A stretch of 64,000 nt of DNA from NCBI RefSeq assembly GCF_001975725.1, contig NZ_CP019434.1, forward strand, positions 1,203,041 to 1,267,040, given 5' to 3'. The notes below the pieces were generated by a model. It saw nothing but the letters and a program-made list of their open reading frames with translations, did no database searches and had not been told where the DNA came from. Made by a program: the position numbers and the translations under genes. Below, in pieces: positions 51,724 to 59,459 of the stretch. This stretch comes from Acidihalobacter ferrooxydans (GTDB taxonomy: Bacteria > Pseudomonadota > Gammaproteobacteria > DSM-5130 > Acidihalobacteraceae). Position 1 is the stretch's first letter; each line of letters opens with the position of its first letter.

Positions 51724-52133
51724 AATGGATCGAGAATGCCCTTTCCATAGCGCTGGTTCAACTCAAACAAACCACTAGAAGCGGGGTCCTTGCTTGCTCT
51801 TTGAACCCACAGCTTTTTTGCGCGTGGATTGGGCTGCGATACCGCGTTCTTAAGAAAAAAATCTTTTAATACAGTGAGATGATGAATCGTCAGTTGTGTT
51901 GATGGAGTATCTGAGTTCAAGGCGAATGAAGCGCGATGGGATGACGGATTGCGACCTCATTCCGGCTCATCGCGGTCATTTTTCATATTCGATAGGCACT
52001 TGGGCGCGAACCCTATTCTGCGTATGAAATGATTGCGCGTGAAATGACTTGACTTTAAAGCTAACTATAGGCTTTAGACTACATCTCATTCCGATGAAAC
52101 GTATTCCGGTCGGAGCCGAAGCACGAGGACATC
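51724..52133. other. 410-bp intergenic region: copper operon promoter
   Basis: The region between the divergent FUSC and merR genes. The right part carries the MerR-type promoter (52049-52080). The left part is AT-richer than its neighbours near 51850-51880, with no gene or clear terminator. Confidence 0.6.
52049..52080 (+). promoter_or_regulatory. MerR-type promoter/operator of the copper operon
   Basis: TTGACT (52049-52054) and TAGACT (52075-52080) are separated by 20 bp, the overlong spacer that MerR-family activators correct by DNA distortion. A dyad TAAAGC/GCTTTA with a 9-bp centre lies in the spacer (52056-52076). It lies 53 bp before the merR ATG and would drive the regulator and copA together. 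Confidence 0.75.
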
Positions 52134-52544
52134 ATGGATAAATTGCTCACTATTGGCGCCCTGGCGCGTACCGAACGACTGGCACCAGAGACGCTGCGCT
52201 ATTACGAACGCGTCGGGCTGATCGAGCCGACCCGTCGCACCGCATCGAACTATCGTCTGTACGGGCCGGAGGCCAAGCGGCGGCTGCGTTTCATCCGCCG
52301 CGCCCAGACGCCGGGTTTTTCGCTGGCCGAGATCGGTGAGCTGCTTTCTCTGCACGCCCGGCCCGAAGCGGACATGGGCGCGGTCAAGGCGTTGACAGAG
52401 GAAAAGATCAGCGATATCGACCAGAAAATCGCGGATCTGCAACGTATGCGGGCGGGGCTCGATGCGCTGGCCGGGCAATGTCCCGGTCACGGTTCCACCG
52501 CCGAATGTCCGATTCTGGGCGCACTCTTGAGGGAGGATCAGTAA
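52134..52544 (+). CDS. MerR-family heavy-metal (copper) regulator, CueR-like
   Basis: A 136-residue regulator. The winged-helix start is [27 protein letters not shown], with a dimerisation helix and a metal loop [10 protein letters not shown] (Cys116, Cys125, with His119). E. coli CueR has Ser77 in the helix; the aligned residue here is Met81 (PEADMGAVK). The loop is one residue longer than in CueR. These features leave metal choice open, but co-transcription with copA and copper proteins points to copper. The stop overlaps the copA start (TAATG). Confidence 0.85.
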
Positions 52545-55009
52545 TGGATGCGAGTGTACCGCTCAAGACGCTGCAAATCGATGTCGAAGGCATGACGTGC
52601 GCCTCCTGCAGTGCGCGCGTGGAGCGCGGACTCAATAAATTGCCGGGCGTGGTCGAGGCGGGCGTGAACCTGGCCACCGAGCGCGCCGAACTGCGTTTCG
52701 ATCCCCGGCAACTGGATGCCAATCGCATCGTCGAAGCGATCCGTGAGACCGGTTACACGCCGGTGAGCGCCGAGGTCGATCTAGCGGTCGAAGGCATGAC
52801 GTGTGCCTCCTGCGTGGGCCGGGTGGAACGCGCGCTCAAACGTGCTTCAGGCGTGTTGGAGGCCACGGTGAACCTGGCCACCGAGCGCGCCCACGTGCGT
52901 TATCTGCCGGCCATGACCGATCCGGCGACACTCGCCGCCGTTGTGGCCGAAGCCGGCTATGCAGCGCAGCCGGTCGGCGAAACCGGTGTGGATGAGAACC
53001 AAAAGCGCCGCGATTCATTGCGCGCGATGGGCCGGGATGTCGCCATCGCAGCCAGTCTGGCCGTGGTCATTATGGTGCTGTCCATGGGTGGCGCTTTCAT
53101 TCCTGCTTTCGAGCATGCGCTGCAGGCGTCCAGCCCGTTTGCGCATTTCTGGGACTGGGTGCAGTGGGTGCTTGCGAGCGTGGTGTTGTTCGGCCCGGGG
53201 CTGCGGTTTTTCCGCCCGGGCTGGATTGCCTACCGGCATCTGTCACCGGATATGAACTCCCTGGTTGCCACCGGTACCGGCGCGGCCTGGGCCTATAGCA
53301 CGCTGGTGCTGCTCGCTCCGATGCTGTTCCCGGCGGTGGCGCGGCATGTGTATTTCGATTCGGCGGCGGTGGTGATCGCGGCGGTTTTGTTTGGCAAGTA
53401 TCTGGAAGAGCTGGCCAAGGGCCGCACCTCGTCGGCCATTCGCAAGCTGGTCGGGTTGCAGGCCAAGACGGCGCGCCGGCTGCAGGCTGACGGGTCGGAA
53501 GTGGAGGTGCCGATGGCCCAGTTGCGTGTCGGCGATCGCGTGGCGGTGCGCCCGGGCGAGCGTATTCCGGTGGATGGTCAGGTGGTCGAGGGAAGTGCGC
53601 ATGTGGACGAGGCGATGCTTACCGGCGAGCCGCTGCCGGTGTCCAAGACGGTGGGCGACACGGTGGTGGGTGGCACCGTGGATCAGGACGGGCGGTTGGT
53701 GATCGAGGCTGCCTCGGTTGGCCGTGACACGGTACTGGCGCAGATCATCAAGCTGGTTGAAAGCGCGCAGACCGGCAAGTTGCCGATCCAGGGCGTGGCC
53801 GACCGCGTGGTGCGCATCTTCTCGCCGGTGGTGATTGTCATCGCCGTCGCTGCCTTTAGCGTGTGGCTGCTGCTCGGCGCCAACATCAGCGTCGCGCTGG
53901 TGGCGGCGGTGGCGGTGCTGGTGGTGGCCTGTCCCTGCGCCATGGGGCTGGCCACGCCGGCGGCGATCATGGTTGGGACCGGACGCGCGGCTGAACTGGG
54001 GGTGCTGTTCCGCAAGGGCGAAGCACTGGAGACGCTCTCGCATGTGGACACGGTGCTGTTCGACAAGACCGGCACCCTGACCGAGGGCCGGCCAACGCTG
54101 GGTGTGGTCGAAGGGCCGCAGGCGGATCTGGCGCTGCGTCTGGCAGGCGCGCTGGAAGCGGCATCCGAGCACCCATTGGCGCGGGCCATCGTCGCAGCAG
54201 CGCAGGAGCGCCAGCTGGAACTGCCCAGCGTTAAGGACTTCAAGGCCGTCGCCGGTTACGGTATCGAGGGTTGCGTCGAAGGCCAGCAGGTGCGGGTCGG
54301 CGCGCGCCGTTTCATGGACCGCGTAGGGATCGACCTCGGCGCGCTGGCGGAACGGGCGGCGGCGCTTGAAGCTGAAGGCAGTACGGTGGTGTTCGCCGCC
54401 GCCGATGGTCAGGTGTTGGGGTTGCTGGCGATCGCCGACCGCATCAAGCCCGAGGCGCGTGCGCTGGTAGGCGCCTTGCGTGATCGCGGCCTGCGCGTGG
54501 CCATGGTCACCGGGGATGCGCGCCGCACCGCCGAGGCGGTGGCCGCCAGTCTCGGCATCGGGGACATCCACGCCGAGGTGCTGCCGCAGGACAAGGCCCG
54601 CGTGGTCACCGAACTGCAGCAGGCTGGTCGGCGGGTGGCCTTCGTCGGCGACGGCATCAACGACGCCCCGGCGCTGGCGCAGGCCGATGTGGGCATTGCG
54701 TTGGCCAGTGGTACTGACATCGCCATTGAAGCTGCGGATGTGACCCTGACCCACGGCCAGCTCGGTGAGGTGGTCACCGCACTGGATGCAGCGCGCAAGA
54801 CGCTGGGCAATATTCGCGGCAATCTGTTCTGGGCATTTTTCTACAACATTCTGCTGATCCCGATTGCTGCCGGTGTGGCTGCGCCACTGGGTATCCACCT
54901 CAGCCCGATGCTGGCCGGAATCGCTATGGGGCTGTCGTCGATCTTCGTGCTCGGCAACAGCCTGCGTCTGAAGCGTCTGCATGCCTGGCAGGCTGCGGTC
55001 GCCGGATAG
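52544..55009 (+). CDS. copA: Cu(I)-exporting P1B-type ATPase CopA
   Basis: An 821-residue P-type ATPase. Two N-terminal HMA domains each carry GMTCASC (Cys19/22 and Cys87/90). The transport motif [10 protein letters not shown] is near residue 463, the phosphorylation site [11 protein letters not shown] near 507, the nucleotide-domain HP in SEHPLARAI, and the hinge [10 protein letters not shown] near 702. This set defines Cu(I) exporters (P1B-1). It pumps copper out of the cytoplasm. The ATG at 52544 overlaps the regulator stop; GGGAGGA is the ribosome-binding site. Confidence 0.96.
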
Positions 55010-55058
55010 TTCATTCATTCCAGGACATCTGGATTCAACCGAAAAGGAGTCATTAGCC

Positions 55059-55457
55059 ATGAGTCGAATCGTTTTTTCCGTTACCAGTCCCAACGACTAC
55101 GCCAGCACCGTGGAGCAGGTCACCGAAGCGCTCAAGAGCGAAGGGTTTGGCGTGCTCACCAGCATCGATGTGGCCGCCACGCTCAAGGCCAAGCTGGATG
55201 TAGAACACCGGCCTTACGTCATTCTCGGTGCCTGCAATCCGCATTACGCCCATCAGGCGCTGGAAGCAGTGCCCGATATCGGCGCGCTGCTGCCCTGCAA
55301 TGTGGTGGTGCGTGAGGAAGACGACGGCCGCGTCAGCGTGGTGTTCATGGATCCCGAATCCGTGCTGGGGCTGATCGCCGATCCAGCCGTCGAGAAGGTT
55401 GGCCATGATGTGGCCGAAAAGTTGCAGCGCGTGGCCGACGCCGTGGGCAAGGCCTGA
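55059..55457 (+). CDS. DUF302 domain-containing protein
   Basis: A 132-residue DUF302 protein. The family motif is [20 protein letters not shown] followed by [10 protein letters not shown], with two conserved cysteines, and [12 protein letters not shown]. The function is unknown; DUF302 genes recur near copper and sulfur metabolism genes. The ATG at 55059 follows an AAAAGGAG ribosome-binding site. The two Cys may bind copper, which is inference only. Confidence 0.85.
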
Positions 55458-55492: not shown

Positions 55493-55699
55493 ATGAGCAC
55501 AATCAATCTGAAGATCACCGGCATGACCTGCGAGCACTGCGTGCGTGCCGCCACCAAGGCGCTCGAAGGCGTGTCCGGCGTGGACAAGGCCGAGGTCACG
55601 CTGACCCCGGGTAGCGCTGTGGTGCACGGCGCGGCCGACCCGCAACAACTGATCGCAGCGGTCAAGGAAGAAGGCTACGACGCCGAGGTGCAGGGCTAG
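55493..55699 (+). CDS. copZ: Copper chaperone CopZ (HMA domain)
   Basis: A 68-residue single HMA domain with ITGMTCEHCVRAATKALEG (MxCxxC) near the N-terminus and a ferredoxin-like fold. It delivers Cu(I) to CopA or the regulator. It lies 3 bp before the glutaredoxin-like gene, so the two are co-expressed. Confidence 0.93.
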   Translation: MSTINLKITGMTCEHCVRAATKALEGVSGVDKAEVTLTPGSAVVHGAADPQQLIAAVKEEGYDAEVQG

Positions 55700-55702
55700 G
55701 TC

Positions 55703-55942
55703 ATGGCCGAGGTGTTGCTTTACACCAGCCCGGGCTGTCCGGACTGCGCTGCGGTCAAGCGTTATCTCGACGCGCGAGGTATCGCCTACGAGGAACGGGA
55801 TGTGACCGCGCCGGGCATGGCCGAGCAGGCCAAATCCCGCTACGGGGTGCGCGTTGCGCCGATCACCGTGATCGATGGCGAGGCGCTGTACGGCACGTTC
55901 GCCGATCAGAAGCCGCGGCTGGACGCTGCGTTCGGCGGCTGA
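55703..55942 (+). CDS. Glutaredoxin-like protein (CPDC motif)
   Basis: A 79-residue thioredoxin-fold protein: LLYTSPGCPDCAAVKRYLDA with the CxxC active site, and the cis-Pro in RVAPITVIDG. It resembles NrdH/glutaredoxin. In this operon it probably keeps the cysteines of CopZ or the regulator reduced, or helps release copper; this is inference from location. Confidence 0.88.
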   Translation: MAEVLLYTSPGCPDCAAVKRYLDARGIAYEERDVTAPGMAEQAKSRYGVRVAPITVIDGEALYGTFADQKPRLDAAFGG

Positions 55943-55963: not shown

Positions 55964-56716
55964 ATGGAAATGAACAGGAAATTCATCAAGCGATGTGCGC
56001 TGGCCGCCACCTGCGTCGCGCTCGCTGTCCCGCCTGTATTTGCCCAGGGCATGATGGGCGGCGATAACGGTGTCACGGGAAACGGAGCCGGCGGTCAGGG
56101 GCCGGGCATGATGGGCGGAGCCGGCGGGAGTGGTTACGGCTCGGCAAACGGATCAGGCGTTGCTCAGGGTCCCGGCATGATGGGCACGGTCAACAACCGG
56201 CCCGTGGCCCCCGGCTGGGGCGGCGCCACCTGGGATTATGCGCAGGTGAAACGCTATCTGGCTGCTTCGGAGGCGGACGGCCGCGCCGAGGGCAAGCGCG
56301 TGGTGTTCCAGGGGCATGCTGTGACCATCGACATGGTGGCGGTGCAACCCGGGCATCCCGACACCACCTTCGAGGTGCATGGCATCACCAATCCGACTCT
56401 GGTGGTGCCGGCCGGCGCGACCGTGCATCTCAATCTTGTCAACATGGACTACGGCAACAACATGGAACACGGCGTGATTATCACCCGGGTGCCGCCGCCG
56501 TATCAGCGTAACCTCATGATGCAGACCGGCACCGGGCTGGCCGGCATCGCGCCACCGATTCCGTGGCGCAGCAAGAAAGCGCTGAGTCAGTCGCTGTTCG
56601 CCGCTGCCGGCACCACGTTCACCACGCCGACCCGGCCCGGCGTCTACTGGTATGTCTGCCAGACGCCGGGGCATGCCGAGAAAGGTATGTACGGCAAGTT
56701 TGTGGTCGTTGGATGA
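55964..56716 (+). CDS. Rusticyanin-like periplasmic blue copper protein
   Basis: A 250-residue exported protein: the signal peptide ends at VPPVFAQ. A Met/Gly-rich linker with three GMMG motifs (residues ~28-70) precedes a cupredoxin domain resembling rusticyanin. Shared features are the WDYAQVKRYLAAS entry, the FEVHGITNPTLVVPAGATV strand, and the C-terminal YVCQTPGHAEKGMYGKFVVV. The type I copper ligands are His169, Cys232, His237 and Met242, with the C-x4-H-x4-M spacing of rusticyanin. Rusticyanin carries electrons from iron oxidation; in this operon a role in copper binding or in donating electrons to the multicopper oxidase is also possible. Confidence 0.85.
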   Translation: MEMNRKFIKRCALAATCVALAVPPVFAQGMMGGDNGVTGNGAGGQGPGMMGGAGGSGYGSANGSGVAQGPGMMGTVNNRPVAPGWGGATWDYAQVKRYLAASEADGRAEGKRVVFQGHAVTIDMVAVQPGHPDTTFEVHGITNPTLVVPAGATVHLNLVNMDYGNNMEHGVIITRVPPPYQRNLMMQTGTGLAGIAPPIPWRSKKALSQSLFAAAGTTFTTPTRPGVYWYVCQTPGHAEKGMYGKFVVVG

Positions 56717-56726
56717 GGATACGAGG

Positions 56727-56996
56727 ATGCCATATGGAAACGGACCGGAAGGATTTTTCGGTGCAATGTGGGGGATACCGATCATGGGATTTCTGATCAT
56801 GCTGGCGGTGCTGGCCGCCGTAGTCTGGGTGATCGTCGCGGTCGGACGTTCGGCCTGGAAGGGGCGCGAGGCACCTCCGACGCTGCCGCGCCACGATAGT
56901 GCGCTCCAAGCCCTGCGCGAACGCTACGCGCGCGGCGAGATTGATCACGACACCTTCGAGCGCATGCGCCGGGAGCTGGAACGCGCTGGTTCCTGA
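56727..56996 (+). CDS. SHOCT domain membrane protein
   Basis: An 89-residue protein with one membrane helix (IMGFLIMLAVLAAVVWVIVA) and a C-terminal SHOCT motif (ALQALRERYARGEIDHDTFERM). The ATG at 56727 is chosen; the first residues are Gly- and aromatic-rich. SHOCT proteins accompany many metal-related loci but have no defined activity. Confidence 0.85.
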   Translation: MPYGNGPEGFFGAMWGIPIMGFLIMLAVLAAVVWVIVAVGRSAWKGREAPPTLPRHDSALQALRERYARGEIDHDTFERMRRELERAGS

Positions 56997-57035: not shown

Positions 57036-57722
57036 ATGGACTCTACTTATTTAAACTGGATTGCCTGGATCGCATTGATTTCGGGCATTGTTTCAGCCAT
57101 TGCCATCGTGGTGGATATTTTTTCGGGTCGACGCCAGTCGATGAAGATCATGGAAATCACCTGGCCGGTCACCGGGCTGTACATGGGGCCGTTGGGCTGG
57201 TGGGCTTATGTGCGCTTCGGAAGAGCGCAAAAGGTCGGAACCTCAGATCATGGTGACCATGAGGACAAGCCAAAGAAGCCCTTCTGGCAAAGCGTATTTG
57301 TCTCGGTGACCCATTGCGGAGGGGGTTGCACCATCGGTGACATCATTTCCGACACCGGCCTCTACCTGAGTGGTCTGGTGCTGTTTGGATCCTCTCTGCT
57401 GACCTCCTATACGTTCGATTTTGCCTTGGCGTTCATTATTGGCATTTTGTTTCAGTATCTACCGATCCGGGCTATGGGTGAGACAAGCCGCTGGCGCGCG
57501 CTGGTCAAGGCGGTCAAGGCGGACGCCCTGTCGTTGATTTCTTTCGAGATTGGTCTGTTCGGCTGGATGGCCCTGGTGCAACTGGTCTGGTTCGCGCCTG
57601 GCCTGAACGCTGCAGATCCGCTGTTCTGGTTCATGATGCAGGTCGGTATGACTGTGGGTTTTATCACCGCCTATCCGACCAACTGGTGGTTAGTCAGAAA
57701 GGGCATCAAGCACGGCATGTAA
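57036..57722 (+). CDS. DUF4396 membrane protein
   Basis: A 228-residue polytopic protein with about six helices. The family hallmark THCGGGCTIGDIISD (two cysteines in GGGC context) lies mid-protein, preceded by a His/Asp/Lys-rich loop (SDHGDHEDKPKK). Helices after it contain PIRAMGETSRW. DUF4396 proteins are found with copper oxidases; transport or sensing of copper is possible, not shown. Confidence 0.85.
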   Translation: MDSTYLNWIAWIALISGIVSAIAIVVDIFSGRRQSMKIMEITWPVTGLYMGPLGWWAYVRFGRAQKVGTSDHGDHEDKPKKPFWQSVFVSVTHCGGGCTIGDIISDTGLYLSGLVLFGSSLLTSYTFDFALAFIIGILFQYLPIRAMGETSRWRALVKAVKADALSLISFEIGLFGWMALVQLVWFAPGLNAADPLFWFMMQVGMTVGFITAYPTNWWLVRKGIKHGM

Positions 57723-57827: not shown

Positions 57828-59459
57828 ATGAATCGATCCGAAGACATAGATCATATGCGCCGGCGTCTGCTGCTGCAGGGCCTTGCCGCTGGCGGTGCGC
57901 TGGCTGTCGGGCTGGGGCCGCGTGCAGCGCAAGCGCAAGGCGGCATGATGGGCGGCATGATGGGGGGCGCACAGAATGTGGCCGCGGCCGGTTCCGGCGT
58001 GTTCTCGCGTACGCTGCCGGTGCCGCCGCCGCTGCACGGGCAGGCTGATGCGCAGGGCGTGTTGCACTATGCCTTGCGTGCCGGGAGCGGTCACAGCGAA
58101 CTGATCGGCGGGGTGCGCACACCGACCTGGGGCTACAACGGCGCGCTGCTTGGCCCCACCCTGCGAATACCGCGCGGCAAACCCGTGCAGATGCATATCA
58201 CCAACGGCTTGGGCGTGCCCACCACCCTGCACTGGCACGGCGCCCAGGTGCCGGGAAAGGTGGACGGCGGGCCGCATAACCTGATCGCGCCCGGCGCCGT
58301 GTGGGCGCCGGCCTTCACGCTGGGCCAGCCGGCCGGGACGCTCTGGTACCACCCGCACCCCCACACGTATACCGGCCCGCAGGTGTATGCCGGGCTGGGC
58401 GGTTTCCTGCTCATCGATGATGGCGAGGATGCGCGGCTCGGCTTGCCGCATACCTACGGCGTGGACGACCTCCCGCTGGCGCTTCAGGACCGGCGCCTGG
58501 ATGCTTCCGGGCACCTTGTCTACATGAACCGGATGCCGGACATGATGGGCATGAAAGGCGACCGTTTCCTGGTCAACGGCGTCGAGCAGCCCCATGCCGA
58601 GGTGCCGGCCGGCTGGTTGCGCCTGCGCCTGCTCAACGCATCCAACGAACGAATTTACCATCTGGCCGTTGCCGACGGGCGTGAATTTCATGTGATTGCC
58701 GGCGATGCGGGTCTGCTGGAACAGCCGGTGCCGCTACGCAGTCTGCTGCTCGCACCGGCCGAACGCGCCGAGATCGTGGTCGATCTGCGTCGCGAGCAGG
58801 GGCGCTCACTGGTGCTGCGCAGCGATTCCGGAGCGGTCGTGCCGGGCCTCTATAGCATGCCTATGCCCGTCGATGCCTATGATCGCGGACGTTTCGATCT
58901 GCTGCAACTGCGCGTCGGCGCGCCGTCGGGCCTGTCCGCCCGCCTCCCGGAACGGCTGGTGCCTGCGCCAACGCCGCGCGCAGACGAACCCGCCCGTGGT
59001 TTTGTACGGAACGGCATGAAGGGCGGCGGCATGATGGGCATGATGGGGATGATGCGCGGCGGCTCCGGTGGCCGCGCGGCGGATGGCCCCGGCGGTATGA
59101 GCATGGGCATCGGCGGGCGTGACCTGTTCGCTATCGACGGACGCTACATGCGCATGAACGTGATCGACGTCAAGACGGCGCTTGGCCGCACGGCGCTGTG
59201 GCGCGTACACAATCGCAGCACCATGGCGCATCCGTTCCATGTGCATGGCACGTCCTTTCTCATCCGCAGCCGCGATGGCAACGCACCGCCGGCACACGAA
59301 CGCGGCTGGAAAGACGTGGTGCTGGTACGCCGCGGCGAGACCGTCGAACTGCTCGCGCCCTTCCATCACCGCGCCGGCGCCGCTCATCCCTACATGTATC
59401 ACTGTCATATCCTCGAACACGAAGACAACGGCATGATGGGGCAGTTCACCGTAACCTGA
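57828..59459 (+). CDS. cueO: Multicopper oxidase, CueO-like
   Basis: A 543-residue oxidase with a Tat signal (MRRRLLLQGLAAGGALAVG). All copper motifs are present: HWHG (His135, His137), WYHPHPH (173-179), HPFHVHG (468-474) and HCHILEHEDNGMM (525 onward), covering the trinuclear site and T1 copper. Met-rich segments GGMMGGMMGG and GMMGMMGMMRGG recall the CueO methionine loop that binds Cu(I). It oxidises periplasmic Cu(I) to Cu(II). It lies 105 bp after DUF4396 and may belong to the same operon or have its own promoter. Confidence 0.95.
   Translation: MNRSEDIDHMRRRLLLQGLAAGGALAVGLGPRAAQAQGGMMGGMMGGAQNVAAAGSGVFSRTLPVPPPLHGQADAQGVLHYALRAGSGHSELIGGVRTPTWGYNGALLGPTLRIPRGKPVQMHITNGLGVPTTLHWHGAQVPGKVDGGPHNLIAPGAVWAPAFTLGQPAGTLWYHPHPHTYTGPQVYAGLGGFLLIDDGEDARLGLPHTYGVDDLPLALQDRRLDASGHLVYMNRMPDMMGMKGDRFLVNGVEQPHAEVPAGWLRLRLLNASNERIYHLAVADGREFHVIAGDAGLLEQPVPLRSLLLAPAERAEIVVDLRREQGRSLVLRSDSGAVVPGLYSMPMPVDAYDRGRFDLLQLRVGAPSGLSARLPERLVPAPTPRADEPARGFVRNGMKGGGMMGMMGMMRGGSGGRAADGPGGMSMGIGGRDLFAIDGRYMRMNVIDVKTALGRTALWRVHNRSTMAHPFHVHGTSFLIRSRDGNAPPAHERGWKDVVLVRRGETVELLAPFHHRAGAAHPYMYHCHILEHEDNGMMGQFTVT

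Follow-up and report, generated by a model that had tools for sequence, protein, structure and literature searches.

A rusticyanin-type cupredoxin of a separate clade in a copper gene cluster of Acidihalobacter ferrooxydans, with a probable role in copper tolerance

Results

The copper gene cluster and its promoter

In the window, the whole 64,000-nucleotide stretch of Acidihalobacter ferrooxydans DNA that was analyzed, we detected nine same-strand genes, encoding a CueR-like regulator, CopA, a DUF302 protein, CopZ, a glutaredoxin, a cupredoxin, a SHOCT-domain protein, a DUF4396 protein, and a CueO-like oxidase (Table 1). The intergenic gaps range from -1 to 105 bases, computed with the DUF302 start at 55053 and the SHOCT start at 56718, that is, 6 and 9 bases before the starts read from the sequence. 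On the regulator, the NCBIfam ZntR and MerR models score almost equal to the CueR model. The cupredoxin gene is located between copZ-grx and the oxidase gene on the same strand, as stated in the initial annotation, with the SHOCT and DUF4396 genes preceding the oxidase.

Long-spacer promoters with an internal dyad are the layout of MerR-family promoters. The likely CueR-type promoter has the perfect dyad TAAAGC-N9-GCTTTA (52056-52076, found by eye) within its spacer. With up to two mismatches allowed, this pattern has three matches in the 64 kb (0.65 expected), and a match with 0 mismatches at the promoter only; an automated inverted-repeat search around the promoter returned 0 pairs. The sister locus (L003) carries TTGACC-N20-TATACT at the same place, with the 20-base spacer kept and the dyad not the same.

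Table 1. Features of the copper gene cluster and of the cupredoxin gene (window positions)
Feature	Positions	Strand	Basis
Likely CueR-type promoter, TTGACT - 20 bp - TAGACT	52049..52080	+	upstream of cueR; inferred function
cueR-like MerR regulator	52134..52544	+	NCBIfam CueR 6.6e-33, under cut-off
copA, Cu(I)-exporting P-type ATPase, two HMA domains	52544..55009	+	Pfam, NCBIfam
DUF302 protein	55059..55457	+	PF03625 7.4e-28; start read from sequence
copZ, CopZ_AFE_1862 family	55493..55699	+	NF047957 101.5 bits, cut-off 85
Glutaredoxin-like protein (grx)	55703..55942	+	PF00462 8.1e-15
Rusticyanin-type cupredoxin of the copper clade (main finding)	55964..56716	+	profile and structure search, tree, alignment, model
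Predicted signal peptide, residues 1-27	55964..56044	+	read from sequence by eye
Met/Gly-rich segment with three GMM triplets, residues 28-80; putative Cu(I)-binding region	56045..56203	+	sequence, low pLDDT
Rusticyanin-fold domain, residues 84-249	56213..56710	+	VIA-align to 1a3z; ligand conservation
Copper ligand H169	56468-56470	+	alignment
Copper ligand C232	56657-56659	+	alignment
Copper ligand H237	56672-56674	+	alignment
Copper ligand M242	56687-56689	+	alignment
Small membrane protein with SHOCT domain	56727..56996	+	PF09851; start read from sequence
DUF4396 membrane protein	57036..57722	+	PF14342 8.5e-42
CueO-like multicopper oxidase	57828..59459	+	PF07732, PF07731; NCBIfam CueO 441 bits, cut-off 525

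Protein anatomy and predicted fold

The cupredoxin open reading frame is real and encodes 250 amino acids; a chance reading frame was ruled out by the fold and the conservation. A Met/Gly-rich segment (residues about 28-80), with the motifs FAQGMMGG...GPGMMGG...GPGMMG and six Met only, separates the signal peptide from the cupredoxin domain; it is also present in copper-clade relatives. The segment was initially described as a tail, a misplacement, since it is N-terminal. Its resemblance to the Met-rich segments of the oxidase (a GGMMGGMMGG N-terminus and a GGGMMGMMGMMRGG insert) was borne out by a count over the 69 non-overlapping window ORFs (20,149 aa), in which 9 of 10 GMM triplets fall in the cupredoxin (3) and the neighboring oxidase (6).

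According to the AlphaFold2 model, built from 29 sequences, residues 25-46 and 48-70 have pLDDT below 50 and are predicted to be disordered, and pLDDT is mostly above 88 over residues 91-250. The type-1 copper set (H169, C232, H237, M242) with C-x4-H-x4-M spacing is exactly the one first proposed, and all four ligands are invariant in 29/29 rows of the alignment of relatives.

The closest solved structures are all rusticyanins: 1a3z was the top match of the structure search (1.3e-22), followed by auracyanin B as the next kind (5e-5), and the identity to rusticyanin structures is 37-39% over 150-153 aligned residues. VIA-align of the model against 1a3z gave Z 25.3 (rmsd 1.1, 150 residues aligned), while the best non-rusticyanin chain reached Z 12.5, and Foldseek concurs. 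The N-terminal rusticyanin extension is present in the predicted fold. A plastocyanin or azurin type was ruled out, with weak matches only in profile searches, structure searches, and VIA-align.

The NCBIfam rusticyanin model TIGR03095 matches the protein at 96.2 bits (cut-off 146.7). This cut-off is uninformative here because the ligand-bearing rusticyanins of sister species miss it as well (106-143 bits, all under the cut-off); it is passed in 0/5 genomes, namely the own and four sister genomes. The sulfocyanin model TIGR03094 (NCBIfam) gave 29.6 bits, below its cut-off of 168.4; the Pfam SoxE match of 28.1 is above its own cut-off of 21. The CopI models NF047895 and NF051440 did not match the protein at E up to 0.01.

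Phylogeny and hallmarks of the copper clade

The maximum-likelihood tree (53 rows, midpoint root) omits L102, which is nearly identical to L103, L122, a gene already represented by L008, the second L120 copy, and the broken copies of G002 and L119. Also omitted are 5 of the 36 matches from the order of G204, which had no locus; for L006, only the cupredoxin part was used. Canonical rusticyanins, among them the A. ferrooxidans protein and the rus products of the three other Acidihalobacter, form a group of 22 rows (support 90/77), and together with a pair of ligandless homologues they reach 99/96; this pair is long-branched and possibly misplaced (tree program warning). The copper side holds 29 rows (99/96), made up of a copper clade of 13 rows (94/86) and the f163/f183 branch of 16 rows (96/89), and the window protein belongs to an 8-row clade (100/97). 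The window cupredoxin and the rus-operon rusticyanins thus stand on opposite sides of a 99/96 branch. The possibility, raised at the outset, that the protein belongs to another cupredoxin clade was checked and found no support, the nearest solved structures all being rusticyanins, but it forms a separate branch and is not a moved iron gene. A recent duplicate of the rus-operon gene was ruled out by the tree and by an identity of 24-37% with the paralogues, both ligandless and canonical.

The copper-clade hallmarks are NMDYGxxMxH, Met clusters, and loss of the Ser86 equivalent. Ser86 of rusticyanin tunes the potential and the acid stability of the protein; Ser occupies this position in 5/5 canonical rows versus 0/12 copper-clade rows. 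At position -2 relative to the first His, 10/12 copper-clade rows carry a Met (M167) versus 0/5 canonical ones. All 12 copper-clade rows of the 29-row alignment have 2-4 Met between the first His and the Cys, a weak difference from canonical rows (Mann-Whitney p 0.06), three of the five of which have three Met.

Compared with A. ferrooxidans Rus (1a3z / 1rcy), the window protein shares the fold with the N-terminal extension, the four ligands, and the C-x4-H-x4-M loop. It differs in its separate clade and its Met/Gly-rich arm; ahead of the first ligand it carries NMDYGxxMxH and an insertion of two residues, Ser86 is replaced by Gly, and its gene is located in a copper cluster with no cox genes nearby.

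Gene neighborhoods of the relatives

Neighborhoods were compared within 6 kb (for CopA, an alignment of at least 200 aa) between 16 copper-clade entries, which include broken copies, duplicate contigs, and two pairs on the same contig, and 21 others (14 f163, 2 f183, and 5 canonical entries). CopA was detected for 8/16 copper-clade entries versus 0/14 f163, 0/2 f183, and 0/5 canonical entries (Fisher p 3e-4 for 8/16 versus 0/21, descriptive, as the genomes are related and the rows not independent); the other 8/16 lack CopA within 6 kb, some owing to short flanks. DUF302 and SHOCT genes were each found near 8/16 copper-clade entries versus 0/21 others, the SHOCT gene also near copper-clade relatives in three other lineages, and the DUF302 protein is a possible partner of the copper-clade cupredoxin. 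For cox genes the counts are 0/16 copper-clade versus 3/5 canonical entries. The window cupredoxin has no cox or Cyc2 match within 6 kb and the rus-operon homologue lies elsewhere in the genome, in agreement with the first reading that this is not a rus-operon gene.

The 14 f163 loci have a conserved neighborhood in which no copper gene was found, so the copper linkage is not general to the whole copper side. We also observed that the f163 branch (L101-L115) has C-x4-H-x5-M spacing, a short Met-rich N-terminus, and a pyridine-nucleotide-disulphide oxidoreductase nearby. At the f183 locus L099:5753-7752 (G880/G881 loci L099 and L100), a CopC gene is followed by a fusion of CopD, a Met-rich linker, and a rusticyanin domain; L100 has the same fusion, judged by length and sequence.

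A multicopper oxidase gene is located within 6 kb of 4/16 copper-clade entries versus 0/21 others. This bears on whether the cupredoxin is a copper chaperone loading the neighboring CueO-like oxidase, as proposed for CutF and CutO (PMC8456105). The two genes share the cluster and the GMM-rich motifs, and both are kept in the sister MAG (L003), which has the same cluster minus DUF4396. Against this, the oxidase accompanies only those 4/16 entries, the Thioclava (L006) and Acidiphilium (L004) loci show none within 6 kb, and in G002 the oxidase gene is open while the cupredoxin gene is broken; we consider loading of the oxidase improbable. The same low count does not favor the initial suggestion that the protein shuttles electrons from the oxidase reaction.

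Rusticyanin is an electron carrier, and with its rusticyanin fold and full type-1 site, in a genome that has a cox cluster, the protein could in principle oxidize Cu(I) and pass the electron to a respiratory or multicopper oxidase, so that detoxification would be wired to respiration. However, no redox partner gene was detected beside the copper-clade members (the cox count above), and CueO-type oxidases reduce O2 themselves and use it directly, so we give such a shuttle little credence.

Distribution and broken copies

The copper clade is rare and patchy. At E up to 1e-12, with canonical rusticyanins included, 5/369 genomes of the own class had a match; further counts were 1/397 in the own phylum sample, 1/111 in the phylum of the Deinococci genome, 7/347 in the family of the Acidiphilium genome, 18/57 in the order of G204 (canonical ones included), and 1/394 in the family of Thioclava. 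The plasmid records searched gave no match. Further relatives were found in Acidiphilium-related genomes and in one Deinococci MAG, which has three copies. The Thioclava atlantica relative (L006) is frameshifted, and its axial Met is changed to Ile. The G002 orthologue (L041:6778-8398, G002:C3) is interrupted by a transposase gene with an integrase core, and the upstream copA is split into two ORFs. G002 also has a CopI-like gene.

Comparison with CopI

Strong CopI matches (E < 1e-20) were detected in G002, G003, G004, the Thioclava genome, and G881. Among the 16 genomes searched, such a match is present in 4/4 that lack an intact gene of the copper clade or sister branch versus 1/12 with one (Fisher 0.003, descriptive, few independent lineages), as if CopI and the copper-clade cupredoxin stand in for each other. 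The Acidihalobacter CopI-like protein (g2, L029) matches the CopI models under the cut-off, a multicopper oxidase gene lies some 3 kb from its own, and its His/Met-rich segment (by eye) is in the loop corresponding to the one after the first His. The internal His/Met-rich segment of CopI is reported, in the available portions of PMC13308877, to be crucial for resistance.

Like CopI (R. gelatinosus; Acidihalobacter L029), the window protein is a periplasmic-type cupredoxin with the type-1 ligand set, encoded near copper resistance genes, and with further Met-rich sites, one N-terminal and one following the first His, where copper binding is presumed. Unlike CopI, it belongs to another cupredoxin family, with the rusticyanin fold and Met/Gly-rich rather than His-rich sites.

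The host iron chain

The own genome (G000) has only two TIGR03095 matches, as does the sister G001. The second one, the rus-operon homologue with which comparison was initially suggested, is L036:13317-14090 (G000:C1, about 331,316-332,089; G001 counterpart L025), placed after ctaB in the cox cluster, the position that rus occupies in Acidihalobacter (PMC10654088). All four ligands are lost, with Gly, Ser, Asn, and Gln (own) or Glu (G001) at the ligand positions. The ligandless homologue is apparently kept, because the reading frames are open in both species and the proteins are 58% identical. Two further cupredoxin-like proteins (by eye), L036:5275-6207 on the minus strand and L036:7797-8468, are encoded around the own cox cluster and have no Pfam match.

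The Cyc2 of G003, used as a query, gave no match in G000 or G001 at E up to 10 and two genes each in G002, G003, and G004. As no second ligand-complete rusticyanin was detected in the genome, the window cupredoxin is the only one detected. The V8 (DSM 14175) assembly has four gaps, about 6 kb in all (PMC5477407); the sister G001, however, shows the same Cyc2-less, ligandless pattern.

These results weigh on the proposal that the window gene encodes the iron-oxidation rusticyanin of A. ferrooxydans. The species oxidizes iron, its rus operon genes are stated to be present (PMC5477407), and the other of its two TIGR03095 matches is ligandless; the rus-operon statement fits the cox cluster but not a working rusticyanin. 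On the other side stand the lack of a detected Cyc2, the copper-type cluster, and the tree position outside the iron rusticyanins. In addition, in-situ spectroscopy of strain 14175 supplied with iron showed neither a cytochrome c signal nor a rusticyanin-like one (PMC5143472), which speaks against the copper-cluster gene as the iron carrier, at least for cells grown on iron. An iron-oxidation role is, in our estimate, very improbable.

Discussion

We suggest that the window protein, with its rusticyanin scaffold, acts in the periplasm as a CopI-like cupredoxin for copper tolerance, which would capture and transfer Cu(I), rather than as an electron carrier of iron respiration; we assign this reading as a whole a probability of roughly 0.6. 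At the level of sequence and model, the protein is of an exported type with intact ligands and a predicted disordered arm, encoded in a copper cluster and belonging to a clade repeatedly linked to copper genes. A putative copper function is well supported by this context, and a role in copper tolerance is highly probable. Copper protection is most likely, and not iron electron transport, because of the copper cluster and the own branch of the protein. The idea of recruitment to copper handling, voiced in the initial annotation together with the rusticyanin likeness that the fold and the nearest family bear out, is backed by the phylogeny, the copper context, the Met clusters of the clade, the lack of a Cyc2 match, and the lack of a second ligand-complete rusticyanin.

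The individual Cu(I) capture-and-transfer steps are proposed tentatively, at a little under even odds; the small number of Met in the arm, six, weighs against the overall reading. Met sulfur still binds Cu(I) at acid pH. CueR would turn on the cluster in response to copper and CopA would export Cu(I); periplasmic Cu(I) may be caught by the Met-rich arm together with the Met loop (M184 and M185 by the LMM motif, with M167 beside the first His) and handed on to the type-1 site, where it would be either buffered or oxidized to Cu(II) in parallel to the CueO-like oxidase.

The relationship between rusticyanin and copper is already in print. Rus and AcoP of A. ferrooxidans were considered possible copper-resistance determinants (Navarro et al. 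2016, as relayed in the accessible parts of PMC5328820 and PMC6803676), and copper induces rusA and rusB in A. ferrivorans (PMC7463520, text available in part). The Rus/AcoP proposal resembles ours in that a rusticyanin would bind excess periplasmic copper; the difference is that iron-operon proteins with double duty are meant there, and a dedicated copper-cluster gene of another clade is found here. In Sulfobacillus thermotolerans Kr1, a rusticyanin is encoded in a plasmid-like region with copZ, copA, and csoR (accessible portion of PMC6803676), which likewise unites a rusticyanin-type gene and copper efflux genes in one region; unlike here, the host is Gram-positive. In the literature searched, chiefly non-subscription and in part available only as partial text, we found no report of a rusticyanin gene in a cueR-copA-copZ-cueO cluster and no description of the copper clade, the CopD fusion, or the V8 ligand loss.

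A wider reading, which we regard as unlikely, is a copper-substrate branch of rusticyanins, in which the type-1 site would oxidize Cu(I) delivered by the Met-rich arm and which would be fused to CopD in one sister lineage; A. ferrooxydans would then have this protein as its only copper-bearing rusticyanin and an iron chain with no Cyc2 and with a conserved ligandless rusticyanin. If true, iron and copper rusticyanins would be two specializations of one ancestor.

Genes annotated as rusticyanin serve as markers of iron oxidation. This clade points to copper defense as another possible role for genes of the rusticyanin fold, so such annotations can mislead. The odd published spectrum of A. ferrooxydans can be tied to concrete gene losses, and the published proposal of copper protection of acidophiles by rusticyanin gains a dedicated test case in the copper clade.
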